This document shows positions 2,398 through 21,725 of a stretch of DNA of 64,000 nt, piece by piece. The number at the start of each line of letters is the position of its first letter. Within the stretch, counting starts at the first letter, position 1. The translations under genes and the position numbers were made by a program. Source of the stretch: Paraprevotella xylaniphila YIT 11841 (lineage in GTDB: Bacteria; Bacteroidota; Bacteroidia; Bacteroidales; Bacteroidaceae). Under the pieces are notes generated by a model that saw only the letters and a list, made by a program, of their open reading frames with translations, searched no databases and was not told where the DNA came from. The stretch spans positions 62,001 to 126,000 of the forward strand of contig NZ_GL883887.1 in assembly GCF_000205165.1 (NCBI RefSeq), written 5' to 3'.

Positions 2398-2434
2398 TGA
2401 TACCTCCTTCTTTTAATGTTAGACAATCAGTTAA

Positions 2435-3574: not shown

Positions 3575-3580
3575 AATCGT

Positions 3581-5005
3581 TCAATTTAACCAAGACCAAA
3601 AAATTCTATTTATCTCAGGGTCATGCCTGTGCAATAACTCGAACAAGTAATGTATGATTGACTTTGTCTTTTTACACATTTCATTTGTCGGTCTGAAACC
3701 TATCATATCTCCTTGTTCGGACATATTGCGCACAGGGTCTGCACCGCAATAGGGCTGGAACACACATTCGGAACATACAGGCAGACACTCTGTACAAGCA
3801 GAGGAAATGATATGGTGTAGAAGTTCACCATTGAACATTTCCTGATAACTATTCTCATTCACATTGCCCAACCTGAAATAATAGTTCTTGAAGCGTGCCA
3901 TCATTCGAGCTTCATCCGATACATATACGCTACCGTCATAATCATAGATAACTCCTGCAATGCCAACGCCTGCTGGAGATTGCAAATCAACAAAGCCCGT
4001 AGCAAACGGCGTAAGCATTCTTCTTAAAAGGAGCGCAGCAAATCCCTCTACAAAGAATGTCCCTTTCTTATTTAGTTCTATGATATAATCAAGTCCTTCT
4101 TTGTAATTCTCAATGAAATCTTCTATGGGATAAGCTATCTTTTCTTTGTACTGTTTTGCAAAACCGTATGGATTAAGAGACCGTAAAAATATGCTGTTGA
4201 ATCCCAAGCGTATATATTCGTCGATTATATCTTTGAAGCGCCCCAAACTATATTTTGAGGTTGTCATAAGAGCGGACGCACAATCATTGTTTCCCCATAT
4301 TTCCCGTATCATGGAGAGGTGCTTCTCAAAAATCGCATGATGGTCTAATTCCTTGTCTTGCAGCGGACGGTTTGTGTCGTGTAAATCTTTAGGACCGTCC
4401 AACGATGTAGAAATCATGCAGTTATGTTCCTTCAGGTATTTCACTATCTTTTCATTTAGCAAGGTCAGATTGGTACAAATAACGAAATCCAATTCTTTCT
4501 TCTTGAAAAGGTTTTGCCACTCTGCTTCCTCTATGATGTATTTCACCATCTCAAAATCAGTCGAGGGGTCGCCACCCTGAAATTCTATCTTGATGCACGG
4601 TGAAGGTGATTGGAAGATTGTTTTGACAATATTCTTAGCCGTCTGTTTTGTCATGTCGGCAGAGTGGTCATCCCGGTTTTTGCGTGCTACTTGACAATAT
4701 ATGCAACTGGAGTTACAACGCAAGGTCGGAACAACCATATGTAAAGAAGTGAAGTCACGAAGTATGCTTTTCTTTGTGCGGAATTTTGTTGCAAGCATTG
4801 AAACCACATCTTCGACCTTATCTGTCGTGGCAATTTGTTTTGATTCGATGTCATAAAACAAATCACTGTGTATATCCATTTCTCCATTTACAAAACGATG
4901 GAAGTCTTCGTTCTGCAAAAAGATATATTCCCCGACTTCGTTTGTGAGGAGATATTCTGTATCATTGAACCGTTCAAAACGGAATGGCAATAACTGATAA
5001 TCCAT
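3581..5005 (-). CDS. hxsB: HXS system radical SAM maturase HxsB
   Basis: A 474-aa radical SAM/SPASM-type protein. CNSSCIYC supplies the [4Fe-4S] ligands (Cys97, Cys101, Cys104), followed by FQGGDPS as the GGE-like motif. The C-terminal part carries about seven cysteines (CTEC, CSEC, CG, then a final C before KKTK), a SPASM-like arrangement for auxiliary clusters as in peptide maturases. The first 90 residues are a small leader domain. It follows hxsD by 4 nt and precedes hxsC by 6 nt, so the three are very likely co-translated. It should act with HxsC on HxsA. The assignment rests on the motifs plus the complete hxsDBCA neighbourhood. Confidence 0.93.
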   Translation of the reverse strand: MDYQLLPFRFERFNDTEYLLTNEVGEYIFLQNEDFHRFVNGEMDIHSDLFYDIESKQIATTDKVEDVVSMLATKFRTKKSILRDFTSLHMVVPTLRCNSSCIYCQVARKNRDDHSADMTKQTAKNIVKTIFQSPSPCIKIEFQGGDPSTDFEMVKYIIEEAEWQNLFKKKELDFVICTNLTLLNEKIVKYLKEHNCMISTSLDGPKDLHDTNRPLQDKELDHHAIFEKHLSMIREIWGNNDCASALMTTSKYSLGRFKDIIDEYIRLGFNSIFLRSLNPYGFAKQYKEKIAYPIEDFIENYKEGLDYIIELNKKGTFFVEGFAALLLRRMLTPFATGFVDLQSPAGVGIAGVIYDYDGSVYVSDEARMMARFKNYYFRLGNVNENSYQEMFNGELLHHIISSACTECLPVCSECVFQPYCGADPVRNMSEQGDMIGFRPTNEMCKKTKSIIHYLFELLHRHDPEINRIFWSWLN

Positions 5006-5009
5006 ATTC

Positions 5010-5342
5010 TTATTTTGAATTTACAGGTTTGAACGCTTCTTCAACTATCATATCACGAATGTGCCCAAATTGGGCATTAACGTCATGCCGCAGTTGTTGG
5101 TCTATCAATTCATTGCAAAATTGCTTGGGAATATCAACAGTAATGGCATTGTCATCTTTTGATTCAAAAATGACAAACACCAAATTAGGATTAGATTTAT
5201 CCGTCTGTTGATGTATGTAAAACAAATGTGAGAACTTATAGATTGCCGCCGTTATTACATCTTTGGAATACAGAGCTAAATCTACAATTACTTGAAACTT
5301 GTTATTGTCAAGTTCTACGACTGGGAATTGAATCTTTGCCAT
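5010..5342 (-). CDS. hxsD: HXS system protein HxsD
   Basis: A 110-aa soluble protein without cysteine clusters or membrane segments, apart from one Cys. The segment VDLALYSKDVITAAIYKF (about residues 20-37) matches the family pattern of a short strand followed by a helix with an AYKF-like core. It is the first gene of the operon, with 4 nt to hxsB. In HXS systems HxsD is always small and adjacent to the maturases, but its biochemical role is unknown; a recognition or chaperone role is only a guess. The start is the ATG at 5342, preceded by a leader of roughly 260 nt that contains a large inverted repeat. Confidence 0.88.
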   Translation of the reverse strand: MAKIQFPVVELDNNKFQVIVDLALYSKDVITAAIYKFSHLFYIHQQTDKSNPNLVFVIFESKDDNAITVDIPKQFCNELIDQQLRHDVNAQFGHIRDMIVEEAFKPVNSK

Positions 5343-6805: not shown

Positions 6806-7999
6806 TTACTTAATAATGCCATTCAAAAAATCACGATCCTCTTTTGGTAAATCTGACTCCTTCATAAAGCCTAATTTATATTTTAGGATTCTCTTTAACT
6901 TCGTTTTACCGCCTCCTGACAAAGCAAAATAGCTACTGGAAAAATTAACATTACTAATTTTATTGATATAGGAATCATATGATTCTTGGACACCATCCTG
7001 TTCAAGAATATTTCTCAAGATGTCAAATAAAACGGATATTCCAATAGTCTTTAGGATTACGCTGTCTTTGGTTGCATTATTCCACAAGATTGTTTTGACT
7101 GAATAAAAATATTTTTCTAATATTGAATACAGTTCATCATCTTTTGATTCTATATATAAGTGTCGAAGTACCGGTTTCCCTTTATCGGTAAGCCCTTTAC
7201 GTGTTTTATCACTCCATATGCTATTTTTCTTCATTGCTAGCATATCACGGTCTTTCTGCGGATTACTAGAGATTAAACACATAATACCTTCAACCATGGC
7301 AGCGGTAGAAAGCAACCATTGATTCTTATCTACTAAGTCTTCCAGCTCAGAATACAAGGGAGCCAATTTAATTTTCTGATATAATGGAGAGCTCTTGCTA
7401 AAATTAAACTTTCTCGTCAGGTATACGGCTAACTTCTCTGGAGACCACGTATCCTGAGGCTCATTCTCAACATCATATCCAAATAATTCCAATGCCAGAC
7501 TCTTATCTACACGCTTTTGATTTCCGTTAATTGTTGCAAACAAATATGCTTGATAAGGGTTAGGAAGATCAATAAAAATGGAACAGACCAACTCTATTTC
7601 TTTGCAATCTGAATCCGCATAATTAAATGCGTTCAAACGATGTTGTCCGTCAATTATCAATGATGAAATATTGTCCGGCACAATCAAATCATAAACATCT
7701 GGCAGATTTGTTTTCTCAACATGCCATCGCTTTTCCTCATCTTCAATGATTACACCTTTATCGTTAATATTTGCAGCAACTAAGATTGAAGTCGGAAAAC
7801 TCATCTCATCAGACATAATAAACTTGGCAATAGCTTTTAATCGCTTTGAATCTAATGGGCGTTGATTACCAGTTAGATTGCCGTTTTTGTCATATCTTGC
7901 CACGGATGAGGTTGATATTCTCAACAAATCACCTGCCTTAATTTTTGCTATATAGAATTCACCTAATGGCTGAACAACTTTTATTGCTTTTATTTCCAT
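6806..7999 (-). CDS. dndB: DGQHR-domain protein, DndB-like
   Basis: A 397-aa protein with the signature IIDGQHRLNAF near residue 115, the hallmark of the DGQHR/DndB family. An N-terminal beta-rich part precedes it, including the QRPLDSKRLKAIAKFI segment, where these proteins describe an identity or set element. The C-terminal half is helical. Known family role: DndB proteins are tied to phosphorothioation loci and, where studied, repress dnd transcription; related DGQHR proteins occur in other modification systems. Here it is the tenth and last gene of the operon, 8 nt after the membrane protein gene, whereas dndB is more often first. I infer a regulatory or modification-tuning role. The symbol is assigned by motif and context. 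Confidence 0.8.
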   Translation of the reverse strand: MEIKAIKVVQPLGEFYIAKIKAGDLLRISTSSVARYDKNGNLTGNQRPLDSKRLKAIAKFIMSDEMSFPTSILVAANINDKGVIIEDEEKRWHVEKTNLPDVYDLIVPDNISSLIIDGQHRLNAFNYADSDCKEIELVCSIFIDLPNPYQAYLFATINGNQKRVDKSLALELFGYDVENEPQDTWSPEKLAVYLTRKFNFSKSSPLYQKIKLAPLYSELEDLVDKNQWLLSTAAMVEGIMCLISSNPQKDRDMLAMKKNSIWSDKTRKGLTDKGKPVLRHLYIESKDDELYSILEKYFYSVKTILWNNATKDSVILKTIGISVLFDILRNILEQDGVQESYDSYINKISNVNFSSSYFALSGGGKTKLKRILKYKLGFMKESDLPKEDRDFLNGIIK

Positions 8000-8007
8000 A
8001 ACACTAA

Positions 8008-8436
8008 TTAATCATTAAATTGCCCTAAACCGCCACCAAGAGCATTAGTACTCTCTTCTAAAACTTTATTATCACGATTCTGATACCACCATACAAACGG
8101 ATAACATACATATGCAACACCTGAAATAATTAGTGCACATAATCTATTACCTGTATTAATTTGAGCGATAACAATGAAACAAAGCACACAAGAGACGGTT
8201 GGAATAACATAGTTAACGAACACCTCAAATTTCTTATTACTACCCATCAACGATAGTATCCTCTCTGCACATGTAGGTGCTAATGAAGATATAACAATCG
8301 TAATTAATCCCAACGACGTTGCTTTCCAATCTAGAATACCAAACATTGCAGATAGCCAGATTGAGGATGTGCCTAAAACAATAATTATTAGAAGTTGTAA
8401 TAACTTCATTCTATTATGGTTAAAGAAATTTCGCAT
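8008..8436 (-). CDS. Small membrane protein of the Dnd operon
   Basis: A 142-aa protein of unrecognised family. Three or four hydrophobic segments are visible: about residues 12-31 (LQLLIIIVLGTSSIWLSAMF), 38-54, 72-90 and 98-118. The N-terminus (MRNFFNHNRMK) is basic and the C-terminal tail is polar and Gly-rich. Reading frames upstream and downstream are 2 and 8 nt away, so it is a fixed member of the operon. A membrane component inside a defence operon often acts as an effector or as an anchor, but nothing in this sequence identifies a pore or an enzyme. No catalytic motif is seen. Confidence 0.75.
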   Translation of the reverse strand: MRNFFNHNRMKLLQLLIIIVLGTSSIWLSAMFGILDWKATSLGLITIVISSLAPTCAERILSLMGSNKKFEVFVNYVIPTVSCVLCFIVIAQINTGNRLCALIISGVAYVCYPFVWWYQNRDNKVLEESTNALGGGLGQFND

Positions 8437-8438
8437 AA

Positions 8439-8864
8439 TTATCTCATAAATATTTCTTGTTTAACCCACTCTAAATCATTCGTGATATTCTTATCCTCCA
8501 TCATTCTCAGGATATAATAGAATCCACCATTTGCATATTCATTGATTAGATCAATAGCTTTCGATGGTTCCTTCATTATATCAAGAGAGCCAGCCTTTGC
8601 TATACACATACACAATAAGGCTTCTGCATCTTTCTCCCCACCACTATGATACATCGTATTCAAATTAAACGGACGATCTGCAATTGGTGATTGCAAAGGT
8701 CTCCGCTCATTATGTAAGAATCCGACTACAGCGGCCCATACGAAACACTGCCAATGATATGAGAAGACATTGTATGCTCCACCCTGTTTGTTTGAGAACT
8801 TAAGAATAACATTATCCTTAACATATTGCTCAAATGAAAACTTTATTTCGAATATATTATCCAT
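8439..8864 (-). CDS. Hypothetical 141-aa protein of the Dnd operon
   Basis: A soluble, mixed-charge protein that I do not recognise. It has an aromatic-rich middle (YHWQCFVWAAVVGFLHNERR, about residues 36-55) and an ALLCMCIAKAG helix, and it ends in KQEIFMR. No membrane helix, nucleotide-binding or nuclease motif is visible. It starts 7 nt after the Rad50-like ATPase gene and ends 2 nt before the membrane protein gene. This spacing suggests co-translation with both and possibly a shared complex. Its function cannot be deduced from sequence. Confidence 0.75.
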   Translation of the reverse strand: MDNIFEIKFSFEQYVKDNVILKFSNKQGGAYNVFSYHWQCFVWAAVVGFLHNERRPLQSPIADRPFNLNTMYHSGGEKDAEALLCMCIAKAGSLDIMKEPSKAIDLINEYANGGFYYILRMMEDKNITNDLEWVKQEIFMR

Positions 8865-8871
8865 ATCAGCC

Positions 8872-11025
8872 TTATTTTAATATCGTTACTCTTGTCGATA
8901 CTTCGTGCTGTCCTCGGTTTGCATCCCCACTGTATATTTCACTCTCCAGATTGAATATGCGAGAGACATTACTTTGGTTATAGAGGTCGGCATACTGCTC
9001 ACTATTCAAGTCCACATCTTTTGTTAAGATAATAGACTGGGCGAAAATGTCCTTAATGCCGAGCAGGTATTTATGTGTCGTTTCAAGGTCAAAGCTCGAT
9101 GTCGGAGCATCACTAATGAATGGATAATAAATACCCATGGCTTCCTGATTTAGAGACAACAAAGCGTTAATAATACTCATCTTCTTTCGGTCTTCATGGC
9201 TCGTATTGAGTCCTGCGTCAAATTCAATCGAGTAATCATCCCCAATTTTCACATCGCCCTTATATCCATTATCGTGCTCTGTAAATTTGGCATAGAAAAT
9301 ATTCGCACGCTCTTCAATCTTGCGAAGCAGCTCTTTTCTTGCAGACTCTTGAACTCTTTTACAAATATCCTCAAGGAATGTTGAGATATGTTTCCACTCC
9401 GTTTCCGGAACCTTGGCAATTGTGGTATCTTTTGCCCCCAATTTTTCAAGCTCCTTCTCCGTTGCTCGTAGTTCACTTTTATAATTGCCAAGCGTTTGCT
9501 TTGATATATCCAGATTACGTTGTAATCTTTCCAAATTACTTCGACTGGCTCGTATCTTAGAATCAATTACGCCGGCTGTCTCAGCTTGAGTTACAGGATT
9601 AACGCCATGCTTCTTCTTGATATCTTCAATCTGTTCATCAAGTTTTCGCTTTTCCTCTAACTTTTTACGCCGCAATGCCATATATTTTTCCAATTCATCT
9701 TCGCTATCTTTCCATTGTTTATCTATTCCGGATAGCGAAACAAGCAATGAATCAGGATAGTCTTGAATCTTACCTACGAACATATTAAACTGCTTCGAGA
9801 ATTGCATGTTATTCGTAAACTCCTCCATCTCCTTTAGATACTCTTCTTGCAGTCTCAAGCGTTCAACAATATACTGATACTGAACATCCTCCTCCGAGAA
9901 CTCAGTTCCACACACAAAACATTTTTTTTCTCGAAGGATCTCTTCCAACTTTGCACGGCTAGGATTATCCAGATACTTTCTTTCCGGAACTGTATACTCC
10001 TCGGCTTTATGTTTTTCGATGATTTCTTTGCACTGCTCAATCAGAGAGTCAATTCCACGTAATATCCATAATGAAGGAAGTTGAGTTCGTTGAAAATTAT
10101 CTATGTTTGTTGTTTTATCCAACAGCCTTTCAATTTCAGCCTCACAGTCTTTGTATTTCTTGACAAGCGTAGTATAGCTTGCAAGACCGGTTATTTTAGT
10201 CTCGCTATCAGCAAGTGCAATCTTAACAGTCTCGATATCAGCCTCTAGCTTCTTCTTATTATCTTCCTCTTTGTTAATCTTATAATTTAAGGTATCAATA
10301 ATCGAAATCAATCCCTTTACATTAGCATTATGCTTATTTACCTCTTTTAATTTACGACTCTCTATTCCGGTAATCTTTACTTTTGATTTGCTGATTATCT
10401 CTGAAAGTTTTTCATAATAAGGGAAATAGGAAATATGCTTTACGGCATCTTTTAATGTCTCTCTATCCCTAAAATTAATCAAGCTCTCCAACGACTCGCC
10501 TTGAAACCAGATATAGTTTCTGATACCATCAGGAAATAGCTCATTGATCTTGTCTTCAGCCATTATATCATTGAGGACACGGGTTCCTGTCGGAGAGTCA
10601 AAAGACACTTTTAAGATATTAGGACGAACTTGCCAAGCATCTTTGGAGTCCCACTCTTCTGAATCTAGCCTCAATGCACTGACAGAACGGTCAATAATAT
10701 AATTTACGCCTTTATCATCTTCCAATTCAATCTGCACGGAAGATGTTACCTCGTCATTAACACTAGCATTGTACAACGCTCGCTTATTAATAAACTCATA
10801 GCGTTGCATCGAGAACTTTGCCGATTGTGGCAGGCTGTCTGTTGTGCACCACCCAACACCTGTGACATATATTCTCCCGAATAACACCCAATAAAAGGCG
10901 TTAAAGAGTTTTGACTTTCCCTTTCCACCATTGCCAATAATGAGATTCAATCCATCGGAGAACTCCAATGTCTGAATCTCATAGTAAGACTGGAAGTTTT
11001 CAATCTTTATTTTTCTTATTCTCAT
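8872..11025 (-). CDS. Rad50/SMC-like AAA ATPase associated with the Dnd operon
   Basis: A 717-aa ABC-type ATPase. The N-terminal Walker A is IGNGGKGKSK (about residues 30-39) after an ENFQSY start typical of RecF/Rad50 proteins. Two long coiled coils (about 200-300 and 385-530) flank a CxxC zinc-hook-like motif, CFVCGTEF (Cys369, Cys372). The C-terminal part has ISDAPTSSFD as Walker B/D-loop. The usual LSGGE signature is replaced by a degenerate HEDRKKMS segment. It differs clearly from DndD in the same operon, which has a different hinge. A DNA-end or modified-DNA sensing motor partnering the PLD-helicase is plausible by analogy with Rad50/SbcC. It lies 13 nt downstream of the 67-aa gene. 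Confidence 0.82.
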   Translation of the reverse strand: MRIRKIKIENFQSYYEIQTLEFSDGLNLIIGNGGKGKSKLFNAFYWVLFGRIYVTGVGWCTTDSLPQSAKFSMQRYEFINKRALYNASVNDEVTSSVQIELEDDKGVNYIIDRSVSALRLDSEEWDSKDAWQVRPNILKVSFDSPTGTRVLNDIMAEDKINELFPDGIRNYIWFQGESLESLINFRDRETLKDAVKHISYFPYYEKLSEIISKSKVKITGIESRKLKEVNKHNANVKGLISIIDTLNYKINKEEDNKKKLEADIETVKIALADSETKITGLASYTTLVKKYKDCEAEIERLLDKTTNIDNFQRTQLPSLWILRGIDSLIEQCKEIIEKHKAEEYTVPERKYLDNPSRAKLEEILREKKCFVCGTEFSEEDVQYQYIVERLRLQEEYLKEMEEFTNNMQFSKQFNMFVGKIQDYPDSLLVSLSGIDKQWKDSEDELEKYMALRRKKLEEKRKLDEQIEDIKKKHGVNPVTQAETAGVIDSKIRASRSNLERLQRNLDISKQTLGNYKSELRATEKELEKLGAKDTTIAKVPETEWKHISTFLEDICKRVQESARKELLRKIEERANIFYAKFTEHDNGYKGDVKIGDDYSIEFDAGLNTSHEDRKKMSIINALLSLNQEAMGIYYPFISDAPTSSFDLETTHKYLLGIKDIFAQSIILTKDVDLNSEQYADLYNQSNVSRIFNLESEIYSGDANRGQHEVSTRVTILK

Positions 11026-11038
11026 AGCCTTACCTTAA

Positions 11039-11242
11039 TTAATCGTTACATATATTTTTAATGTTGGCAATATACTGATTGGTTAAAGAATCAGCATCTC
11101 CAGAATGGGTAGAGAGATCGGTAAGCATTTGCGCAACAGCTTTTGCTTTCTCCAGATTTACAGACACTTTTTCAGTCCCTGCCTCTAATGTTTGATCAAT
11201 CTCTTTTTCTATTGCTTTGAACATTTCGTCTTGAATAGCCAT
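11039..11242 (-). CDS. DNA modification system-associated small protein
   Basis: A 67-aa, largely helical acidic protein (MAIQDEMFKAIEKEIDQTLE, then KAKAVAQMLTDLS). I recall similar short proteins in Dnd and other DNA-modification operons under the name 'DNA modification system-associated small protein'. No catalytic motif is present. It sits between the PLD-helicase (6 nt upstream) and the Rad50-like ATPase (13 nt downstream), so it may bridge or regulate them. That role is inference from position only. Confidence 0.75.
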   Translation of the reverse strand: MAIQDEMFKAIEKEIDQTLEAGTEKVSVNLEKAKAVAQMLTDLSTHSGDADSLTNQYIANIKNICND

Positions 11243-11248
11243 AGTATC

Positions 11249-13447
11249 TTAATTATAATTATTATTTTCCATTTCAATCATTGCAAATACATCGATTCGT
11301 AAAGCCTCACAATAGGTTTGCAACTCTCCATATAGGATATCAATTTGATTATCTGCAAGAGCTGCAAAGTTCACTATTCGTCGAACCTCCCCAATAAACA
11401 TATTTCGCTCAACTCCAGTAGATTCATCCATTATATTGGGAGGTGTAACTATCAAATCCCATATTGTTGCTTTTTCTTTCCCTCTGCTTTTTCGGAGAAC
11501 ACGACCTCTCCGTTGAATAAATTGACGAGGATTGCCTGTACTTGAACAGAATATTGCATGTTCTGCACGAGGGATATCAACACCTTCATCCAAGCATTTC
11601 ATGGACAAGAGTATTTGTATATCCCCATCTGCAAAACTTTTCAATACACCAGCAGCATCGTCCAATCCGCTAATATACTTATGATAACGATACCCATGCT
11701 CCTTAAACATTTGGGCATACTCATCTATTATATGTATGTCTTCTTGTTCTATATCATAAGACTCATTAACGGAGTAGTCAGGCTCATATCCTTCTGGTAC
11801 AAAAACAAAAGTATAGTCTAAGTTACGATTTTGTTTTAAATTCGCCAATAATTGGGCTATTGCAGCCTTTTTATTTTCTGCTTTATGGATAATTCTTTTG
11901 CGTTTGAGCAACAACTTCTCGGCATCAGGCTTATACTTACCAGTATCCGAGTCAATATATTTCCTTAGCTGGACCGAAATTCGTTCATATTCTACCATCT
12001 CTGTCTCCGTTAACTCTATAAAGATCGGATAATAATCATAGTGGCATAATATTCCTTCTTCAATAGCCTGCCTCATCGTGTATCGATATGTATACTCGGG
12101 TGGTCTTGAATTAAAAAAGTTATACAGCTGCTCTGATCCATGATCATCATAAATTCTTTCGGGAGTAGCAGATAGGCCTATACGCCAATGAATCATCTCC
12201 GGCAAATGCCTCAGAGAACTTGTTGAACCAATATTATGAGCTTCATCTGCGATATAAAGGAAAGTGTCAATGCCTTTTACCTTTTTAAGGAATGATTGAA
12301 ACTCTTTTCTATTGAATGTTGCGTAGGTAGTAATAATTACAATATTCTTAGTTTGATCCAGCAGGCTTCTAGTTATATATCTATTTAATATTTCTTTCCA
12401 GTCTTTATCAGTATATGTAGAAACTATGTTATGAAAGCTGAAAGCCTCCACCTCTCGCCTCCATTGTATGGCTAACGCTTGCGTAGGAACAACAATGATC
12501 GCTTTATAAAACCCATTTTCTTTATATTGCTTGCGCAAACAGTTCAGTGCGGTTACTGTCTTACCGGAACCTGTGGCCATGGCAAAGATTCCCTTCTTGC
12601 CATTTTCAATCCAAGCATTATAAGCATCAATCTGAATCTTACGCTCTTCGGGGAATGGGAATCGAGGTTCCTGCTCTTTCAATTCCAATTTATCAAGGAG
12701 CCGTTGCGACAACGATGGAGGGTTCTCTCTTTCAGGATCAAAACTGTTTCTCAAACTTATGCTTGCATCAAGCAGTTCGGGTACAGTCATTTTAGGATAT
12801 GCCTCACTTAAAAAGGTCTTCACCTCGTTTATAGGAATATGAATTAAATGAGGAGTATCATTTCGCCATGATTGGTCGAATAAATTCTGATACTCAGTGA
12901 TTCTTTTGTCATCATCCGGTGAGGTGAATACTGTGATAGTCTCCCCATTAAGCTCTAAAGCCGATTGTGAGAAGTTGGCAGATCCAATAAAAGCAACCCT
13001 ATTTCCATCTTCATCAGTAAATATACCGTATTTGTCATGCCCCAGTCCCCCTTTCGTCGAAATAGTTGCAACAAATTCGATCCGATTGATAGAGATTAAG
13101 TAGGATAGGCAATGAAAGAAATGTTCATCTTCCCTTGAAAGAGTATTTGTCAGAGTCTTAATATCTGACAATATCCGACACTCAAATTCTTTGACTAAAT
13201 GTTTTTGTCCATTTTCGATAGCATCTTTATCCTCTTTGCTCAAAATATGGTTGATAACAACCCGCATTTTCCCTCCATTTGCAATAAACAGTGCGAATCC
13301 AAAAGCAAGACTTCTTATTCCACTTGAGGAAAAGAATCCAAGCCCTAAATCAAAAGTAGTACTTTCAATCAGAGCTTCTGTAAAAAACTCCTTTGGCTCA
13401 TCTAAACCAGAAGAATAACTATGCTTGAACTGAACATCACTTAACAT
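11249..13447 (-). CDS. PLD-nuclease / SF2 helicase fusion, candidate Dnd restriction effector
   Basis: A 732-aa two-domain protein. Residues 1-200 form a phospholipase-D-like nuclease domain with the HDK motif at 137-139 and GSANFS at 155-160. Residues 265-670 form an SF2 helicase with Walker A ATGSGKT (291-297), DEAH (401-404), GLSATP (424-429) and motif VI QRRGRVLR (645-652). All key residues are present, so it should be active. Its start overlaps the dndE stop by 7 nt. Such fusions occur in restriction and defence operons, where the helicase translocates and the PLD domain cuts. dptFGH is not present here, so this gene is the best candidate for cutting DNA that lacks phosphorothioates. Confidence 0.88.
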   Translation of the reverse strand: MLSDVQFKHSYSSGLDEPKEFFTEALIESTTFDLGLGFFSSSGIRSLAFGFALFIANGGKMRVVINHILSKEDKDAIENGQKHLVKEFECRILSDIKTLTNTLSREDEHFFHCLSYLISINRIEFVATISTKGGLGHDKYGIFTDEDGNRVAFIGSANFSQSALELNGETITVFTSPDDDKRITEYQNLFDQSWRNDTPHLIHIPINEVKTFLSEAYPKMTVPELLDASISLRNSFDPERENPPSLSQRLLDKLELKEQEPRFPFPEERKIQIDAYNAWIENGKKGIFAMATGSGKTVTALNCLRKQYKENGFYKAIIVVPTQALAIQWRREVEAFSFHNIVSTYTDKDWKEILNRYITRSLLDQTKNIVIITTYATFNRKEFQSFLKKVKGIDTFLYIADEAHNIGSTSSLRHLPEMIHWRIGLSATPERIYDDHGSEQLYNFFNSRPPEYTYRYTMRQAIEEGILCHYDYYPIFIELTETEMVEYERISVQLRKYIDSDTGKYKPDAEKLLLKRKRIIHKAENKKAAIAQLLANLKQNRNLDYTFVFVPEGYEPDYSVNESYDIEQEDIHIIDEYAQMFKEHGYRYHKYISGLDDAAGVLKSFADGDIQILLSMKCLDEGVDIPRAEHAIFCSSTGNPRQFIQRRGRVLRKSRGKEKATIWDLIVTPPNIMDESTGVERNMFIGEVRRIVNFAALADNQIDILYGELQTYCEALRIDVFAMIEMENNNYN

Positions 13448-13839
13448 ATTATATCCTCCAATCCATGCGTGATTTTATCAATCAGATAATCGTAACCATT
13501 CAGATTGGGATTGCTGCGCAACTCTTTGTTCATAAGTTGTAATCCATCATCAATATGCATCTTGACATATTTAGGGATATCCTTATCGGTTTTATAGATC
13601 CCATATTTTACACATATAAGACCTATATAGTAGGATGAATTGTTGCCAAACAAGACATTCTTACTATACTCCTTACCCTGAGAATCAGCAATATCAGTCA
13701 GCGACAACAGCCGATCTTGAGACAGTGAATATGCTAAAGCGATACGAGCTATGATATTTTCTGCACCCAAATTGAATTTACGGCTCAATTCGGTCACAAC
13801 AATTTTATTCTCCTTCGATGTTTTTATACTATTGAACAT
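13441..13839 (-). CDS. dndE: DNA sulfur modification protein DndE
   Basis: A 132-aa helical protein. The segment ELSRKFNLGAENIIARIALAY near residues 18-38 matches the start of the DndE ribbon-like helical fold, and the length agrees with the family. DndE binds nicked DNA in studied systems and acts with DndC and DndD in phosphorothioate insertion. It lies 2 nt after dndD and overlaps the helicase gene by 7 nt. The N-terminal MFNSIKTSKENK and the order dndC-dndD-dndE support the call. Confidence 0.88.
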   Translation of the reverse strand: MFNSIKTSKENKIVVTELSRKFNLGAENIIARIALAYSLSQDRLLSLTDIADSQGKEYSKNVLFGNNSSYYIGLICVKYGIYKTDKDIPKYVKMHIDDGLQLMNKELRSNPNLNGYDYLIDKITHGLEDIIC

Positions 13840-13841
13840 AT

Positions 13842-15983
13842 CTATGCAAGCGTTTTAAACAATTTATTGGGTATAACCTTTTTGAACGATGAACATCCAT
13901 CTGCGTTCTCAATAACATATACTTTATTCACACTTGGAAGTAATGCGGAATACTCAGTCTCCGACAGCTCTTTTCCTAATAATGGGAAAATAACAACCTG
14001 TTTTGACACCGACGGGTAGAACTTAGTAATGATATTATGGGAATGTATGCTATCAAACTTTTGAAGTGGACTATCAATGAATACAGGAAAGTCTATCCCG
14101 GATTCTTCGACAAGAGCCTTAAGGATTGCCGTAGCATAAAGTTGCTGCTCCCCTTTTGACAACTTCTCCTTATTGATAATCTCGCCTGCTTTATCAAGCA
14201 ATTCGATTTCAATAATATCATCTTGCAGATCAATCCGAACACTATGAATAAAGTCCGCCTTATGCATCAGCATATCAATGCTTGCAATAATCTTTTGTTC
14301 CAACGAGAATCGACGCTTCGTCTTTAATTCAAGTAAGAACGTGGTAAGCTCTGATATCAGACGCTCGGCGATAACATCCTTCTCTTTATCAGACTTATCA
14401 ACTCGAATATATTTTGTAACCTCTGATAGCTGTTTCTTTAAAACTGCAAGGTCTTTATTGTGTGTACCTATCTGTTCCGACAGCTGACGCGACTTCGCTT
14501 CCAGCCTATTTAGCATATCATCAATCTCGGCCTTATGTGTTCTAATGGCCTTGATATCCGCATTTCCATCATCATACTCAGCAGCAGCAATCTTCTTTTG
14601 AGTTTTAGCCAAGAATATGGCATTATTCTTAATTTCTTTAACTAGCTGCTTAAAGATTGTGCTATACGAGTATCTGATGTTGTCATATAACGCCTGAAAC
14701 TCATTCACCTCATTATCGGTATAATCTAACAATACTTTAAAGTTTACAGGCAAATCCCCTTGCGACTCAACAACATTGGATGCGAAAGCATCAGATATTA
14801 CATGCTCTAGCATTTTACGTTGAGAATCTGACAAACAAAGATCACTGAAGCGCTGCTTTATCTGCATATGTACGGATGACAATGCCTCGTTAATAGCTGT
14901 ACAATTGGCTTCTGTAACCCGAATATTCTTTTCGGCATCAACCTGATTCTTCAAGAGAGCAAACAGCCTACCTGAGATTGCAAATGGAGCAATATCAAGC
15001 ATATCACGCAACTGACTCTTTAGCTTCGAGTCCTTGTCTTTCAATACAGCCAACAGTTCCTTCTGCTTGTTTAGCTCTTCAATGCTGATGGCATTACCCT
15101 CTCGAATCAATCGTTCCTGAAGCTGAGTGGATTCAACTCTGTATTGCTGAATCTGAGCATCTATCTGACTTCGTTCTTCTTCTGCATGCTTAATCTTCGA
15201 TTCAATATCCGAAACGCTATTTGCCAACTTATCCAGCTTGGATTTGCTTACAGTGGACCCGGCATTCTTTCTGAATTTAAGTCGCAGATTCTCAAGATTC
15301 CTCTTGACATCCTCATACTTTTTAATGCCCAAAACCTCGCTGTACGCAGTGCTTAGCCTACGTTTCTCATCCATCGATTTCACTTCGGCTATATTGACAA
15401 TCTTCTCTGCATCGAAAAAGAAGAACTTTGCAATGTCTTTGGATAAAATAAAATCATTGATGAATATATCATATCCAACCTCCTTCGCCAATTCATTGAC
15501 TTGACCATCAATCAAGACATCAACCGATTCAACATCCAGAAAATAGTCATACGTTCTCCTAATCGTTATTATACTACAAGGTATGGAGGGTATAAATACA
15601 TCGGAGAGTACTATTTCCACATAATATTGAGCATCTTCTTTGATATACTCATTTTCTACAGAATATCCATGCCTAGCAATCTGTTTACGCTCTTCTGGTG
15701 TAATTTCATATAAATCCACGGCATGGACTAATGTCTTATGCAGGCTTTGACGTGCATAATTCTTATAGCCTTGGGCATCATTAATATCTCGTCTAAATTT
15801 CTCATCAACATCAGCCATCAACTTGCCATAAAGACACCAAACAAGAGAGGTGAGAAAAGTCGTCTTGCCAAAACCGTTATTTCCAGCAATTAAAAAGATG
15901 TTTTTCGAGTCTGGCTGAAACGAGACTTTGTTATGACCCCTATAGGCTCTATAATTGTGTAATATGATAGATTTTATAAACAT
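13842..15983 (-). CDS. dndD: DNA sulfur modification ATPase DndD
   Basis: A 713-aa SMC-like ATPase. Walker A is AGNNGFGKTT (33-42). Long coiled coils fill about 210-320 and 450-560. The C-terminal lobe holds the ABC signature LSKGEQQL and Walker B VFIDSPLQKFD. It shares its start with the dndC stop (TAATG) and sits 2 nt before dndE, the conserved dndCDE order. DndD provides the ATPase activity thought to open or nick DNA for sulfur insertion. It is a little longer than many DndD proteins but shows no break or missing motif. Confidence 0.93.
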   Translation of the reverse strand: MFIKSIILHNYRAYRGHNKVSFQPDSKNIFLIAGNNGFGKTTFLTSLVWCLYGKLMADVDEKFRRDINDAQGYKNYARQSLHKTLVHAVDLYEITPEERKQIARHGYSVENEYIKEDAQYYVEIVLSDVFIPSIPCSIITIRRTYDYFLDVESVDVLIDGQVNELAKEVGYDIFINDFILSKDIAKFFFFDAEKIVNIAEVKSMDEKRRLSTAYSEVLGIKKYEDVKRNLENLRLKFRKNAGSTVSKSKLDKLANSVSDIESKIKHAEEERSQIDAQIQQYRVESTQLQERLIREGNAISIEELNKQKELLAVLKDKDSKLKSQLRDMLDIAPFAISGRLFALLKNQVDAEKNIRVTEANCTAINEALSSVHMQIKQRFSDLCLSDSQRKMLEHVISDAFASNVVESQGDLPVNFKVLLDYTDNEVNEFQALYDNIRYSYSTIFKQLVKEIKNNAIFLAKTQKKIAAAEYDDGNADIKAIRTHKAEIDDMLNRLEAKSRQLSEQIGTHNKDLAVLKKQLSEVTKYIRVDKSDKEKDVIAERLISELTTFLLELKTKRRFSLEQKIIASIDMLMHKADFIHSVRIDLQDDIIEIELLDKAGEIINKEKLSKGEQQLYATAILKALVEESGIDFPVFIDSPLQKFDSIHSHNIITKFYPSVSKQVVIFPLLGKELSETEYSALLPSVNKVYVIENADGCSSFKKVIPNKLFKTLA

Positions 15984-17317
15984 TACTGACGCGGGTTAAG
16001 ATAGTTATCCAATCGCTTCTCAATATCGCCTTGCAGACCATTGTTATTCATCAAAATAGTCTTACTTCGCTGCAATGAAACCAAATCATTGATCAGCTGA
16101 TAGTCTTCCGGATGTTCTGCACACACTCTCTCAAGAATTAAACGTTCTTGATATTGCATATTTTCTAAAGGCATATTCCGTTGATAGACCTCATTATAAA
16201 TATCAGTAACTTTTGGAGAAAAGCAGCCGTCTCTATACCAATTTATTTGTATAGCAACTAGTTCCTGGTTGGATATCAGTTCCATATGCGGTTTTACCCG
16301 CTGCATGTTACGCTGTAATTCCAATAATTTACGCAACATTATACAGCGATACTCAAAAGTATAATTACCCAAATTATGACCATCTGCATCTACGGCTAAT
16401 TGCCCATTTCTGCGCGTAGCATAGCGGTTCTCCGAGATATTGCGACCTTCAACCATTTCATCCCGAAATTTAAGTAAAGGACTCATCCACTCATTGCCGT
16501 TATTAATTAGAGCTTTCATGGATTTATCCTCCTTAACAACTGTACATACCCAACACCCGAAGCGACTTTGCCCACAAGAGGGTTGAGTTTTATCTGTTAT
16601 TACAGTAGGGCATTCATAGTCGTCTGCATTAGCATTGACATAAATCTGTGTAATTTTTTGATTGTCGTATCCCCACGGAGAGGGAATCTCTCTTAAGATA
16701 TACCACACTTCCTCCAGATACAAATCTTTAATCGGAGAGTAAGTGTATGTATTGGGATTCAATGGGTGCTTGGTTAGTCGCTTCCCCTTTATCTCGTGAC
16801 GCCGAATGGATTTTGCTCGAGTTGCACTTTCCGTCAGGCGCGTACCAATAAGCACAATAGCCTCTCCCATTGTATCGACTTTATCCAAAATAAATTGGGT
16901 CGTAGGTTTAATCTTTAGACGATCAGTGCACCAGCGGAATGTATTGTTGGGAACAGGATACCCTTTGCCAAGAAAGCTGATCCAGAAACTATCCTCCAAC
17001 TTAGGCACTGTAGTTTGTACCGTAATGGGAAGCTTCTGTTCAGAGGCGGCTGTACGAATACAATCTAGTACTTCCACAATATAATCTGTAATAATTGGAT
17101 TTTCGACAAGCGTATCGTTATTAACCACATATATCTGTCTAGCCAGTGCTGCATCCCCAAACTCCTTTCGAATAGATAATAGGGCCTTCCAAACTAAAGT
17201 TAGGACAACAGTGCTATCCTTCCCTCCACTAAATCCGATAATCCAAGGTATATTATTATCATTTTCAAGATACTGTTCCTTGATATCATCTATTATATAA
17301 TCAATACGTTTTAACAT
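15983..17317 (-). CDS. dndC: DNA phosphorothioation sulfurtransferase DndC
   Basis: A 444-aa PAPS-reductase-like protein. The PP-loop SGGKDS (30-35) binds ATP. FRWCTDRLK (around Cys130) and CGQSRFGCWVC (Cys248, Cys255, Cys258) are typical of DndC and include candidate ligands for its [4Fe-4S] cluster. Known role: it activates DNA and transfers sulfur from a cysteine desulfurase to the backbone. No dndA is encoded nearby, so a housekeeping IscS/SufS probably serves as sulfur donor, as in other dndA-less loci. It is the second gene of the operon, 6 nt after the XRE gene, and its stop overlaps the start of dndD. Confidence 0.95.
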   Translation of the reverse strand: MLKRIDYIIDDIKEQYLENDNNIPWIIGFSGGKDSTVVLTLVWKALLSIRKEFGDAALARQIYVVNNDTLVENPIITDYIVEVLDCIRTAASEQKLPITVQTTVPKLEDSFWISFLGKGYPVPNNTFRWCTDRLKIKPTTQFILDKVDTMGEAIVLIGTRLTESATRAKSIRRHEIKGKRLTKHPLNPNTYTYSPIKDLYLEEVWYILREIPSPWGYDNQKITQIYVNANADDYECPTVITDKTQPSCGQSRFGCWVCTVVKEDKSMKALINNGNEWMSPLLKFRDEMVEGRNISENRYATRRNGQLAVDADGHNLGNYTFEYRCIMLRKLLELQRNMQRVKPHMELISNQELVAIQINWYRDGCFSPKVTDIYNEVYQRNMPLENMQYQERLILERVCAEHPEDYQLINDLVSLQRSKTILMNNNGLQGDIEKRLDNYLNPRQ

Positions 17318-17323
17318 TACAAA

Positions 17324-17548
17324 TTACTCTTTCTGTGATTTTAATAATACACGAACATCAACATCTAACAAGTTTGCAATCTCTTGTAATTGCACAATAG
17401 ATGGTTGCGATTTATTTGAACACCATCTTGAAATTGTATTCTCAGATTTGCACATTTGCTCTGCCAACCACCTATTGGTTCTTCGCTTTTCCGCAAGTAC
17501 CGCCTTTATTCTATTCACCACGATTTGTTGATTATTCGACATAGGCAT
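17324..17548 (-). CDS. XRE-family HTH regulator of the Dnd operon
   Basis: A 74-aa protein consisting almost only of a Cro/CI-type helix-turn-helix: IKAVLAEKRRTNRWLAEQM, then CKSENTISRWCSNKSQPS as the recognition part. The tail is LLDVDVRVLL. It is the first gene of the ten-gene operon with 6 nt to dndC, so it very likely binds its own promoter and sets dnd expression. An in-frame ATG two codons downstream (17542) is an alternative start. Confidence 0.88.
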   Translation of the reverse strand: MPMSNNQQIVVNRIKAVLAEKRRTNRWLAEQMCKSENTISRWCSNKSQPSIVQLQEIANLLDVDVRVLLKSQKE

Positions 17549-18370: not shown

Positions 18371-19198
18371 TTATTCAAACTTCATCATATCCGCCAACTG
18401 GACAAAATAATCGTTTGACCAGATATCGAGTTCCTTGGGGTTCCTGACAAACGGAAGGACATCGTTCTTTACCTGGTTGATATTAGCCGAAGCTAATCTG
18501 TCTTTCAACTGAGCCATGAATGTCTCCTGCCCGATTTCTTCATTGTTAAACTGGCGGATACGCTCTGCGAGATGGGCAAAATCAAGAGGAACATTGTGCC
18601 GGACATACCATTCAAAATCATACCAGTCACGACCTTTCACCCTGTTTTTCCAACCCCTGTACACCAATGCGTGCATCTTCCCGGCAAACAAATCAGGCAA
18701 AGTGAAACAGCGTGTCATGAAGGAGTGAGGCTGTAGAAGCAGCTTTTGCTCAGTCCTGAAATTCAACGGTGGCTGGGTATCAACTTCAATTTTGATTTTT
18801 ATGGATTTATCGGTCTGGAAAGACACATCATATACATCCGTATTGTCTTTCAGGAAAGCGGATTCCACCTTACCAAAACTCTTTTTGTCTTTCTTTTTAA
18901 TCTCCACTTCACGACCGACAATGGCAAATTCATCTATTATCGGCTGGAAGTATTTCGTAAAATCGAACTTGTCATCGGGAACCAAGAGGGAAAAATCCAT
19001 ATCCTCGCTGAAGCGTTGAAGACCATGAAAAATTCTGAGGCAGGTACCGCCATAGAAAGCGGCCACATCGAAGAAACCGCCATTATAGAGCCCGGCAAGT
19101 ATCACCTGCTGATTCACTTCAAATATGGCATTACGCCTTTCTTGTTCCGTTGTTGCACCATATGCAGAGAGCATATTGTCATAAATCTCATTCTTCAT
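18371..19198 (-). CDS. AbiEii-type nucleotidyltransferase toxin
   Basis: A 275-aa protein of the nucleotidyltransferase AbiEii/AbiGii toxin family. The motif FYGGTCLRIFHGLQRFSEDM followed by DF carries the GG/T, the conserved Arg and the metal-binding ExD pair. Later GRDWYDFEWYVRHNVP and LPDLFAGKMHAL match the family's second conserved blocks. Its ATG overlaps the stop of the upstream antitoxin gene by 4 nt, the standard antitoxin-first order. In type IV systems the toxin modifies its target by nucleotide transfer and can abort phage infection. All catalytic residues appear intact. Confidence 0.92.
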   Translation of the reverse strand: MKNEIYDNMLSAYGATTEQERRNAIFEVNQQVILAGLYNGGFFDVAAFYGGTCLRIFHGLQRFSEDMDFSLLVPDDKFDFTKYFQPIIDEFAIVGREVEIKKKDKKSFGKVESAFLKDNTDVYDVSFQTDKSIKIKIEVDTQPPLNFRTEQKLLLQPHSFMTRCFTLPDLFAGKMHALVYRGWKNRVKGRDWYDFEWYVRHNVPLDFAHLAERIRQFNNEEIGQETFMAQLKDRLASANINQVKNDVLPFVRNPKELDIWSNDYFVQLADMMKFE

Positions 19199-19821
19199 TT
19201 TTTCAGCAATTTAAGTAAAGTACGGATTGAATCTGCCTTTTTGCCAACCTTGATATATTCCTCAAACAACCGGGCATCCATCTGCATAAAATCCTCCCAT
19301 TCCATCCGGATATCCTCTTCCAGATAAATTTCGGCATCTTTCAGATAACGCAAATTTACTTTTGAAGAATTGGCAATCAGATCACACAGAGCCTTTTCCG
19401 GCGTAGCCATCACAAACGCGTAGCCATCTTTCTTGATGCTTGTCAGCCCAACAGAGAATGCGGCCTTCGAGATATGCGTATATTCAAACCGTCCAAATGG
19501 CGTGTCAAAGTTCTTGGCATACTTCAAAGTCATGGACTGCTTGATGTAAACCTCTTCCGGTATCAGCCCATAATAGCGCAGAGCCGATGACATGGAAACA
19601 TACGAAGGGGCATACAGATGATTGGCTATCAATTCTGTCGAAAGGGTTTTCCCCGTTATTTCCGGACTACACACATAAAGTCCCTTCTTGAGACGTATTA
19701 TCTGTTTGTCACGCTCAAGCAACCTAAGCTTCTGGCTTCCACCCCTGATATGAGGAAACAGGGACTCCAATACGGAAGCTGTAACAGGGATATTTCCTAA
19801 TTGTCGCAATGGATTGTTCAT
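19195..19821 (-). CDS. AbiEi-type antitoxin/transcriptional regulator
   Basis: A 208-aa protein. The N-terminal 60 residues form a winged-helix DNA-binding domain (HIRGGSQKLRLLERDKQIIR, then LKKGLYV), and the rest is the antitoxin domain with YVSMSSALRYYGLIPE and ATPEKALCDLI, both typical of AbiEi proteins. It should repress its own promoter and neutralise the downstream toxin. The start ATG at 19821 lies only 4 nt after the -7 box at 19826-19833, so the transcript may have almost no leader. Confidence 0.9.
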   Translation of the reverse strand: MNNPLRQLGNIPVTASVLESLFPHIRGGSQKLRLLERDKQIIRLKKGLYVCSPEITGKTLSTELIANHLYAPSYVSMSSALRYYGLIPEEVYIKQSMTLKYAKNFDTPFGRFEYTHISKAAFSVGLTSIKKDGYAFVMATPEKALCDLIANSSKVNLRYLKDAEIYLEEDIRMEWEDFMQMDARLFEEYIKVGKKADSIRTLLKLLKK

Positions 19822-20108: not shown

Positions 20109-21371
20109 TTATATCGACAAGTTTTGCCTATTAAAGACAGAAGAAAAACGTTCCTGATCGCTTTTCGCAATTCCCAATTTTGTGGCTAATGCTCTCCATT
20201 CCTTGACGGCATTCAGTACTTCACCAATGATTTGCTGAGCAATATGCTTCTGTAGCATATATTCCTCACACGAATTTAACAATTCATTCAAATCAGATTT
20301 ATTGGTATAGCTGTTGATTAACAGACTCTGATACTCATTCAGCGTTGGATTCATATCGTAAGCCGGAGCCAAAGTCCATCCCTGGGATGTCAGAAGGAAA
20401 CCATGATTACGAAAATGGTCATCCGTATTACCAATGCAGATATTGAATGCAACTCTGCGATACAGTTCTTGCAGATTATCCTCCACGTTGGTACAGTTCT
20501 GAAGTATGAAATCGACAATATCCAGATAGCCATGGCCGGTATTGGCATTATCACCATCATTTAAGCCCAAAAGAGTCATGGCTGAAGCAAAGTGTATGCG
20601 TTTACCGTCTTCCTTTCTGTCAAATCGTCGGGAAAGCAATGTATGGTATTTGTCGTTTGTGAAGATTACTCTTGTCTCTGCTGCGTGTATGCCGGCCTTC
20701 TTTGCCAATAGGTGTGAGAAATGTTCCCAAAGCCCAGTATCATAATCATCTTTGCGTGACGGGAACTTTGCTATATGCAGGATTTTGTTCTCGTCAATTA
20801 CGCTTGCCTTTGGACGCGCCCCGCCAAGGGATGAACCCGGTTGTACAAGCTGCTCGATCCAGCGTCTTTCAGGCAGTTGGTTCTCCTCTTCACTTTTTTC
20901 GATCTCAGAACTGGCAGCAATCAGTTCACGGATATCGGTTAGCGGTGGTATCCTTAGAACTTCACTTGCATTGATATATTCTCCGTCCAAGGAGTCCTTA
21001 AAACGGAGCCCACCCATGCGGGAGTAGTCTTCGATTCCGACAAGATAGTCAAAGGATGAAAGACGGCGAACAGGACGCTTCTCCTCTTTCGCCAGAATCT
21101 GTTCCCTGCGATTTATCAATGTGCGTCCCCATCTGTCTGGAAGGGCATCAGAAAAACATCCGAAAATATCCTTGCCAGGAGCTGTATATTGCTGCCCTGG
21201 ATAGTTGTTCAAGTCATCACTAAGAAACAAGTTGCCATAGTCCCTTAGCCAGTCATCACTATAGCAAAATCCATAACTGTCTGAGCCACGAAGTGATTCA
21301 TAGCTCAGTTCTCCGATCAGCCTTGGTTCTTTAAGCCAATCAAAGTCAGCAAACACATATAGTCGTTTCAT
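20109..21371 (-). CDS. hipA: HipA-family serine/threonine kinase toxin
   Basis: A 420-aa HipA-like kinase in one piece. The N-terminal lobe has FSDALPDRWGR; SSLGGARPKA is the ATP/P-loop region; the catalytic core reads ICIGNTDDHFRNHGF with the Asp and Asn of the kinase site, followed by LAPAYDMNPT as the DFG-like metal motif. HipA proteins phosphorylate aminoacyl-tRNA synthetases or related targets and slow growth. The gene begins 3 nt after the hipB stop. No motif is missing, so it should be active. Confidence 0.93.
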   Translation of the reverse strand: MKRLYVFADFDWLKEPRLIGELSYESLRGSDSYGFCYSDDWLRDYGNLFLSDDLNNYPGQQYTAPGKDIFGCFSDALPDRWGRTLINRREQILAKEEKRPVRRLSSFDYLVGIEDYSRMGGLRFKDSLDGEYINASEVLRIPPLTDIRELIAASSEIEKSEEENQLPERRWIEQLVQPGSSLGGARPKASVIDENKILHIAKFPSRKDDYDTGLWEHFSHLLAKKAGIHAAETRVIFTNDKYHTLLSRRFDRKEDGKRIHFASAMTLLGLNDGDNANTGHGYLDIVDFILQNCTNVEDNLQELYRRVAFNICIGNTDDHFRNHGFLLTSQGWTLAPAYDMNPTLNEYQSLLINSYTNKSDLNELLNSCEEYMLQKHIAQQIIGEVLNAVKEWRALATKLGIAKSDQERFSSVFNRQNLSI

Positions 21372-21374
21372 AGC

Positions 21375-21695: not shown

Positions 21696-21725
21696 ATTCA
21701 ATATATCATATAATATGCAAATATA
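21693..21725 (-). promoter_or_regulatory. hipBA promoter and overlapping operator dyad
   Basis: The minus strand has TATATTTG (21718-21725) as -7 box, with no clear -33. Immediately downstream, CATATT...AATATG half-sites (21693-21717) form a dyad that reaches the hipB start codon and is a likely HipB site. Confidence 0.5.

Follow-up and report, generated by a model that had tools for sequence, protein, structure and literature searches.

The stretch of DNA analysed here, the window, comprises 64,000 nucleotides (nt) of the genome of Paraprevotella xylaniphila YIT 11841. Between positions 6806 and 17548 it carries ten uninterrupted open reading frames (ORFs) in a row on the minus strand, and the distances between neighbours (-7 to +13 nt) make it likely that they form one transcription unit. 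In the order of transcription they encode a helix-turn-helix (HTH) protein, DndC, DndD, DndE, a phospholipase D (PLD)-helicase, a protein of 67 amino acids (aa), a Rad50-like ATPase, a 141-aa protein, a membrane protein with four predicted transmembrane segments (hereafter TM) and a DGQHR protein (Table 1). The initial annotation had recognized a ten-gene Dnd operon at this place, and profile searches confirmed the domains that it had named; its description of dndCDE as fused to the accessory genes holds in the sense of one shared operon, no two of the ORFs being fused. Our comparison suggests that the operon is probably a bacterial DndCDE-PbeABCD phosphorothioate (PT) defence system, joined by an accessory and swappable TM-DGQHR sensor/effector module, in which the constant pairing of TM and DGQHR appears to be the new part.

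Table 1. Genes of the dnd-pbe operon in order of transcription, followed by those of a neighbouring cluster (positions in the window; cut-offs are those of the respective models)
Feature	Position	Strand	Evidence
HTH (Cro/C1 type), first operon gene	17324..17548	-	Pfam HTH_3 35.6 bits
dndC, sulfurtransferase resembling 3'-phosphoadenosine 5'-phosphosulfate (PAPS) reductase	15983..17317	-	TIGR03183 417 bits (cut-off 290)
dndD, ATP-binding cassette (ABC) ATPase	13842..15983	-	TIGR03185 228 bits (slightly below cut-off 246)
dndE	13441..13839	-	Pfam DndE 87 bits (cut-off 25); TIGR03184 53 bits (below cut-off 72)
pbeA, PLD and superfamily 2 (SF2) helicase	11249..13447	-	PADLOC PbeA 795 bits; Pfam PLDc_2, ResIII, Helicase_C
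pbeB, 67-aa small protein	11039..11242	-	Place and size alone; no family over cut-off
pbeC, Rad50-like ABC ATPase with CxxC	8872..11025	-	AAA_23/Rad50-like; PADLOC PbeC 130 bits
pbeD, 141 aa	8439..8864	-	Position; blastp matches to PbeD from other loci; TIGR04062 28.9 bits, short of its cut-off of 74
TM, four-helix membrane protein	8008..8436	-	142 aa; 4 predicted transmembrane segments
DGQHR protein (TIGR04172), candidate ParB/Srx-fold nucleoside triphosphatase (NTPase)	6806..7999	-	TIGR04172 487 bits (cut-off 450)
HxsD	5010-5342	-	Over NCBIfam cut-off
HxsB	3581-5005	-	Over NCBIfam cut-off
HxsC	2435-3574	-	Over NCBIfam cut-off
HxsA2 repeat peptide	2149-2397	-	Over NCBIfam cut-off

Proteins of the DndC, DndD and DndE families put sulfur into the DNA backbone. 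Among the PADLOC models, the dndD product scored higher with one PbeC model (439 bits) than with the best DndD model (275 bits); nevertheless, the position of the gene between dndC and dndE and the absence of a CxxC or CxC motif from its translation argue for DndD. The DndE protein shares 52% identity with its counterparts in L039 and L041, two loci of the comparison set described below, and 18-19% with two DndE proteins of Escherichia coli. No dndA is present in the ten-gene operon. The whole genome holds eight matches to Aminotran_5, the cysteine-desulfurase superfamily, so that the sulfur-supplying desulfurase is likely to be encoded elsewhere in the genome; dndA within the operon is peculiar to the archaeal type locus, and DndA was counted in 32% of the taxa with dnd (PMC10853773). 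A gene comparable to the leading HTH gene lies immediately ahead of dndC in L048, L049 and L052, and we infer that the HTH protein of the operon is an autoregulator. The standard dptFGH set had been described as missing. Matches to the DptG-type and DptF-type families (TIGR03236 and TIGR03238) were indeed absent from the window's genome, and the same models matched strongly in two control genomes, on DptG-sized and DptF-sized ORFs; this negative covers the DptF and DptG types, no search having been aimed at the DptH family. As had been proposed, the accessory genes include a phosphorothioate-linked module distinct from DptFGH. Promoter and terminator signals between 5300 and 7000 were no commoner than in shuffled sequence, and a megablast search of the operon DNA against plasmids gave no near match.

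The four genes behind dndE correspond to pbeABCD, which was described in 2019 behind dndCDEA as a PT-dependent antiviral partner. In the published set, PbeA combines PLD, ResIII and helicase domains, PbeC has an AAA domain, and PbeB and PbeD measure 66 and 152 aa, respectively; dndCD adjoins 42.1% of 553 PbeAC (PMC6459918). Loss of any one of the four genes impaired virus resistance, pbeA having the least effect; the block by archaeal PbeABCD needs PT and stops the replication of the invader, and cleavage of viral DNA was not seen (PMC6459918). A study of 2024 recast PbeC as an ABC ATPase of the CxC type, saw in PbeD a cognate of DndE and argued that PbeA cleaves DNA after all; tandem systems centred on DndD and CxC were counted there in 936 bacterial taxa (PMC10853773). 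In the window, PbeA carries HxK at residue 137 with GSxN behind it, and its score against TIGR04095 (406 bits) is below the cut-off of 600. The pbeB position is occupied in other pbe loci by ORFs of 67-79 aa (seven loci) or of 92 and 103 aa (the two most distant). The cysteine pair of PbeC, C369 and C372, is invariant in all eight aligned PbeC proteins, and PbeD matched PbeD of L037, L038 and L041 with blastp E-values of 5e-12 to 6e-16, calculated for small per-locus sets. Altogether, the core of the operon is almost certainly DndCDE-PbeABCD. Cassettes resembling pbeABCD and devoid of dndCDE were seen in L035, L036, L038, L042 and L043, near proteins of 976-1187 aa and a gene distantly resembling PAPS reductase (E 2e-3 to 9e-7 in blastp with DndC, small sets); these possibly belong to another marking system.

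The last two genes of the operon behave differently from pbeABCD in their distribution. We surveyed 395 genomes from the phylum of the host, that of the window included, and found TIGR04172 matches in 20. Four of the 19 matches outside the window span the family model (L006-L009) and a further one, L010 (in genome G184, next to pbe), covers positions 41-246; all five have directly upstream an ORF of 165-210 aa with 3-4 predicted transmembrane segments, as given by a hydropathy count (19 residues, 1.6) rather than a trained predictor. Among the 14 shorter matches (L011-L024), 13 were readable, and in none of the 13 does a neighbouring gene of the same direction show two or more segments. We then aligned the DGQHR protein of the window with the five others, scanned genome contigs with the resulting profile and retained the best 80 of at least 429 relatives. 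Three of these loci could not be read (L067 was unparsed, L073 and L075 lie at a contig end). In all 77 readable loci, a co-directional gene of 117-310 aa with predicted transmembrane segments lies upstream of the DGQHR gene at a distance of -74 to +15 nt; it has at least two segments in 75 and a single one in L066 and L117. For comparison, of the remaining 550 ORFs with lengths of 110-330 aa at these loci, 46 were predicted to have at least two segments.

The scan relied on the DGQHR protein and not on the TM gene, which therefore had no part in the selection of the loci; the 77 are nevertheless not 77 independent cases, since the six seeds all had a TM gene and many of the loci are related. 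Sixteen further genes with a DGQH motif lie inside the 77 loci, and none has a gene with at least two segments within 100 nt; for one of them, in L077, an 84-aa ORF with two segments lies 383 nt away. A scan of IMG/VR returned 30 relatives, with the TM gene present in 8/8 full-length and 0/22 partial ones. We therefore dropped the idea that TM is a chance neighbour, given the pairing in 77 of 77 loci and the corresponding counts of 0/13, 0/16 and 0/22 for other DGQHR genes. TM and DGQHR very probably form a functional pair, and the pairing is restricted to one DGQHR subfamily. In the initial annotation, all six accessory genes had been read together as a single restriction module. The comparison splits them into two units, because pbeABCD and TM-DGQHR occur apart and the pair is also found without pbe and without dnd.

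To describe these contexts, up to 10 kb on each side of the pair (less at contig ends) were compared by blastp with the genes of the window and with a 289-aa methyltransferase from L044. Genes of the dnd/pbe type were found in 33 of the 77 loci and a D12-type adenine methyltransferase in 34; no locus has both, and ten have neither. Pfam MethyltransfD12 was confirmed for the L044 reference and for 2/2 further methyltransferases. The methyltransferase gene lies directly ahead of the TM gene in 21 of the 34 loci. Of ten neighbouring genes searched, four are housekeeping genes ahead of the methyltransferase, namely ThiC (L093), GltX (L110), urocanase (L115) and GuaA (L125); the other six encode a DpnII nuclease (L120 and L126; a third DpnII gene is in L105), a protein without family (twice), an AstE/AspA-like protein and a long DGQHR protein. 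Behind the cassettes we found a protein without family and a fasciclin gene in L093, a 69-aa ORF without family and a pseudouridine synthase in L125, and an antitoxin-like gene and one without family in L115. With these flanks, L093 and L125 appear to be simple cassettes of three genes, methyltransferase-TM-DGQHR. Directly behind the L110 cassette lie SIR2-like and nucleotidyltransferase genes (11393-12720, plus strand of that locus).

The pair was also seen in several other arrangements. The order pbeD-TM-DGQHR of the window recurs in L041, L055 and L066, dptFGH-TM-DGQHR faces dndEDCB in E. coli ET490, and a DndE-HerA/FtsK fusion stands ahead of TM in L049. The Acinetobacter plasmid pTR3_1 has a BglII/BstYI-type nuclease, an HTH gene on the opposite strand, an adenine methylase, a TM gene with three segments and a DGQHR gene, and a D12-type methyltransferase adjoins six of the eight full-length IMG/VR relatives. 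In a quick tree of 79 DGQHR proteins, the window groups with Prevotella proteins (66-68% identity), and the 31 rows of its group comprise 29 with dnd, two with neither context and none with a methyltransferase. Two small dnd groups (L085/L088 and L080/L083/L118) stand among methyltransferase-linked rows, and the fewest changes between the two contexts on this tree is two; L041 lies on a very long branch and its position is unsure. At 8135-9814 of L134 (E. coli 55989), the annotation splits the DGQHR gene into two consecutive coding sequences and assigns the TM gene to the AgrB family. A DNA match to a Salmonella TM-DGQHR stretch is present in 143 of 5,426 E. coli genomes and, in the 15 listed, it falls within a DGQHR gene.

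The TM protein of the window is predicted by AlphaFold (AF2) to form four long helices, with a predicted local distance difference test score (pLDDT) of 79. A profile built from the 29 TM proteins of all readable loci up to L079, the window excepted, matched it with 56.5 bits (E 1.4e-15, 10,000 sequences), and none of 46 other ORFs with transmembrane segments reached E 0.01 with this profile. When the window's TM was aligned with 27 of the 29 (all but L060 and L072), a glycine-rich first helix emerged and, in most, a WW near the last helix. The tails in this group are short, many with an LGG-like motif, and one C-terminal glycine is invariant in 28/28. No Pfam, NCBIfam or PADLOC family exceeded its cut-off with the window's TM, and five other TM proteins gave nothing over cut-off in Pfam and nothing in PADLOC; when the 28 aligned proteins were searched against NCBIfam, two models were matched, by one member each (E 1e-4 and 9e-4). 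The TM gene of E. coli ET490 is annotated as 'hypothetical protein'. A likeness of the model to the helices of the GLIC channel was considered and dropped, the best Foldseek match having a non-significant E of 0.89.

The DGQHR protein was modelled with a pLDDT of 92.7. In an alignment of 61 proteins (60 of the 77 loci and the window), six residues never vary (R47, D117, G118, H120, R121 and N158) and two, Q46 and Q119, hardly do; they belong to the QR, DG-Q-R and FxxxN motifs described for DGQHR domains and GmrS (PMC4619093). The three best Foldseek matches in the PDB were a ParB-N domain (E 0.021, probability 0.92), PadC (E 0.65) and BrxU (E 0.68, probability 0.06), whereas DndI ranked last of 38 (E 9.9) and most other matches were unrelated. 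A sequence-profile search of the PDB gave nothing at E 1, and neither HNH (checked to E 0.1) nor another nuclease domain was detected in Pfam. A DndB-like protein has been reported to bind ATP and GTP (PMC12704722), and DndI is a DGQQR ATPase with an HNH domain that is stimulated by PT DNA (PMC11662687). A phage origin of the gene was dropped as a candidate: the 50,697 records of INPHARED gave no match to the window's protein at E 1e-5, and the full-length IMG/VR relatives are 25-30% identical.

Nine longer DGQHR proteins of 758-799 aa were also observed (L152, L155, L156, L161, L089, L099, L107, L012 and L013). They have a PD-(D/E)XK-like stretch ahead of the DGQHR part, with an ECK/ECR motif in six of the nine, and eight have an RxxxxH motif as in HEPN RNases behind it, Pfam HEPN matching five, all below cut-off. 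In L152, L155, L156 and L161 the long gene adjoins a similar D12-type methyltransferase with no TM gene in front, and in L089 and L107 it precedes a TM-DGQHR pair. This architecture hints at a sensor with a changeable output.

Based on these comparisons, we propose that DndCDE, with a housekeeping cysteine desulfurase replacing DndA, would put sulfur into the backbone of self-DNA, and that PbeABCD, if it acts like its archaeal counterpart, would block unmarked invading DNA by halting its replication (PMC6459918). By analogy with DndI (PMC11662687), DGQHR may be a ParB/Srx-fold NTPase that reads the modification state or infection. It would work with, and probably gate, its four-helix TM partner, whose output might be membrane depolarisation or arrest, or the tethering of the sensor where DNA enters; the assignment of TM as a gated membrane effector is tentative and, in our estimate, falls a little short of an even chance. 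The relatives beside D12-type adenine methyltransferases indicate that the pair is not PT-specific, and the self mark looks exchangeable. It is tempting to speculate, as a possibility that we would not call probable, that TM-DGQHR is a self-contained, mark-independent module, in which a modification-reading NTPase switches a membrane effector and which can be joined to any self mark, be it phosphorothioate (with dptFGH, pbeABCD or the DndE-HerA/FtsK fusion) or N6-methyladenine with or without DpnII.

Other explanations have to be weighed against this proposal. TM might only anchor DGQHR at the cell envelope, with DGQHR itself nicking or holding unmarked incoming DNA, which we consider rather unlikely. 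The neighbours searched on both sides of the L093 and L125 cassettes, none of them a nuclease, would fit such a role, as would the nicking credited to ParB/Srx proteins (PMC12839542) and the PD-(D/E)XK-like N-terminus of the longer DGQHR proteins, four of which stand beside a similar methyltransferase; however, Pfam shows no nuclease domain for the short DGQHR protein and Foldseek no significant match, and the three methyltransferase loci with DpnII bring a nuclease of their own. That DGQHR regulates the dnd/pbe operon in the manner of DndB, with TM as an incidental companion, appears improbable to us. DndB is a repressor of dnd from the DGQHR superfamily (PMC10853773), and the window's protein scores 54.6 bits with Pfam DndB, over the cut-off, in an operon without another dndB, but it reaches only 17 bits with the DndB model TIGR03233 (cut-off 328). 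The regulator role is further disfavoured by DGQH genes of 361-371 aa in further dnd loci, by the HTH gene of the operon and by the TM gene ahead of DGQHR in every readable locus. Moreover, E. coli ET490 and 55989 carry an annotated dndB alongside TM-DGQHR, for which reason we dropped a replacement of dndB by the DGQHR gene.

The pairing, together with the marking gene to which 67 of the 77 loci are linked, would also suit an addiction or guard element, in which TM is a toxin under the control of DGQHR that kills upon loss of modification and so stabilises the marking genes rather than acting against phages; we regard this as very unlikely. We see hardly any likelihood in the proposal of the initial annotation that all ten genes constitute a separate, undescribed type of PT-dependent defence. 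The absence of DptF- and DptG-type families speaks for it, but four of the six accessory genes are pbeABCD in order and size, so that the published locus contradicts it (PMC6459918, PMC10853773), and three of the families, TIGR04095, TIGR04062 and TIGR04172, had been listed in 2011 as phosphorothioation-dependent satellites (PMC3226654).

Several observations weigh against a PT defence with a swappable sensor/effector module. PbeA occurs in 10 of the 395 genomes surveyed, with dndCDE alongside in three and TM-DGQHR behind in two, the window included, so that pbe requires neither. A profile comparison of PbeD with DndE showed no likeness (probability 0.7%), and the published view of PbeD as a DndE cognate was therefore not reproduced with our small alignments. 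The 80 loci being the best of at least 429 relatives, wider relatives lie outside the pairing count. The TM proteins fall into two groups, the 29 up to L079 and the later 48, which are barely alike (4/48 and 2/29 matched at E<1e-3); against a profile of the later 48, the TM of the window obtains 3.9 bits. With Pfam AgrB, the four-segment TM protein of E. coli 55989 reaches 24.0 bits and so exceeds the cut-off (23) by a single bit, which agrees with the name given to it in RefSeq, 'accessory gene regulator B family protein', and leaves room for a distant tie between the TM family and AgrB membrane proteins. Neither the TM nor the DGQHR model had a Foldseek match at E 0.001, and for DGQHR the ParB/Srx fold is thus suggested by motifs and ranking. 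Other defence genes may stand behind the cassette in L110 and L115, two of the four cassettes searched on both sides. Finally, our observations concern gene content, the pairing, its two exclusive contexts and at least two context changes on the tree; for the pair, the pairing is observed, and it is its function, like every biochemical step above, that we infer.

The surroundings of the operon contain further small systems. Downstream, at 2149-5342 on the minus strand, lies a His-Xaa-Ser peptide cluster of the ribosomally synthesized and post-translationally modified peptide (RiPP) class (Table 1). On the other side, a pair resembling a type IV toxin-antitoxin system adjoins the operon (18371-19821, minus strand): it has an AbiEii toxin domain, scoring 117 bits in Pfam, and ahead of this a gene similar to AbiEi (NCBIfam 42.7 bits against a cut-off of 150, which is not reached). 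A HipA-like gene with a small HTH gene ahead, whose HipB-like match is below cut-off, forms a second toxin-antitoxin-like pair nearby (20109-21701, minus strand).

The core system is already known and the DGQHR family has been listed since 2011; what appears to be new is the constant TM partner. As far as the literature was searched (subscription papers, figures and supplements were outside that search), no description of this partner was found, and the same holds for the pairing as such, for its limitation to a single DGQHR subfamily and for the two contexts that exclude each other. In the main text of PMC10853773, figures and supplements aside, 'transmembrane' is found a single time, in the title of a reference, and 'membrane' a single time, in connection with phages. 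If TM-DGQHR is indeed independent of the mark, its smallest form, methyltransferase-TM-DGQHR, would be a three-gene restriction-like system with its output at the membrane instead of a nuclease. A constant membrane partner offers a concrete handle on the DGQHR family, which so far has no stated role in the literature searched, and makes it testable whether a modification-based defence can act through the membrane; the three-gene cassette allows the pair to be studied apart from the large dnd and pbe machinery.

With the DndCDEA-PbeABCD locus of Haloterrigena jeotgali A29 (PMC6459918), the operon shares the order dndC, dndD, dndE, PLD-helicase, a 66- or 67-aa protein, Rad50-like ATPase and a protein of 152 or 141 aa; unlike that locus, it belongs to a bacterial host, has no dndA in the operon, and is preceded by the HTH gene and followed by TM and DGQHR. 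The CxC ABC-ATPase-DndE systems (PMC10853773) are the same module under another name, and a cysteine pair, here CxxC, is common to both. DndI of Salmonella Cerro 87 (PMC11662687) has in common with the window's protein the DGQ-R motif, a ParB-like NTPase and PT defence, but joins an HNH nickase domain in the same chain, whereas the window's DGQHR protein is without HNH and has a separate TM partner. The type IV enzymes GmrSD and BrxU (PMC4619093) share the QR, DG-Q-R and FxxxN motifs of the ParB/Srx fold; in contrast to them, the window's protein has no HNH half and no known glucosylated-base target. Finally, TIGR04172, or DGQHR_dnd_1, was described as a 'DPT satellite', one gene accompanying phosphorothioation genes (PMC3226654); here it is always paired with TM, and its distant relatives, unlike in that description, adjoin a D12-type methyltransferase instead.

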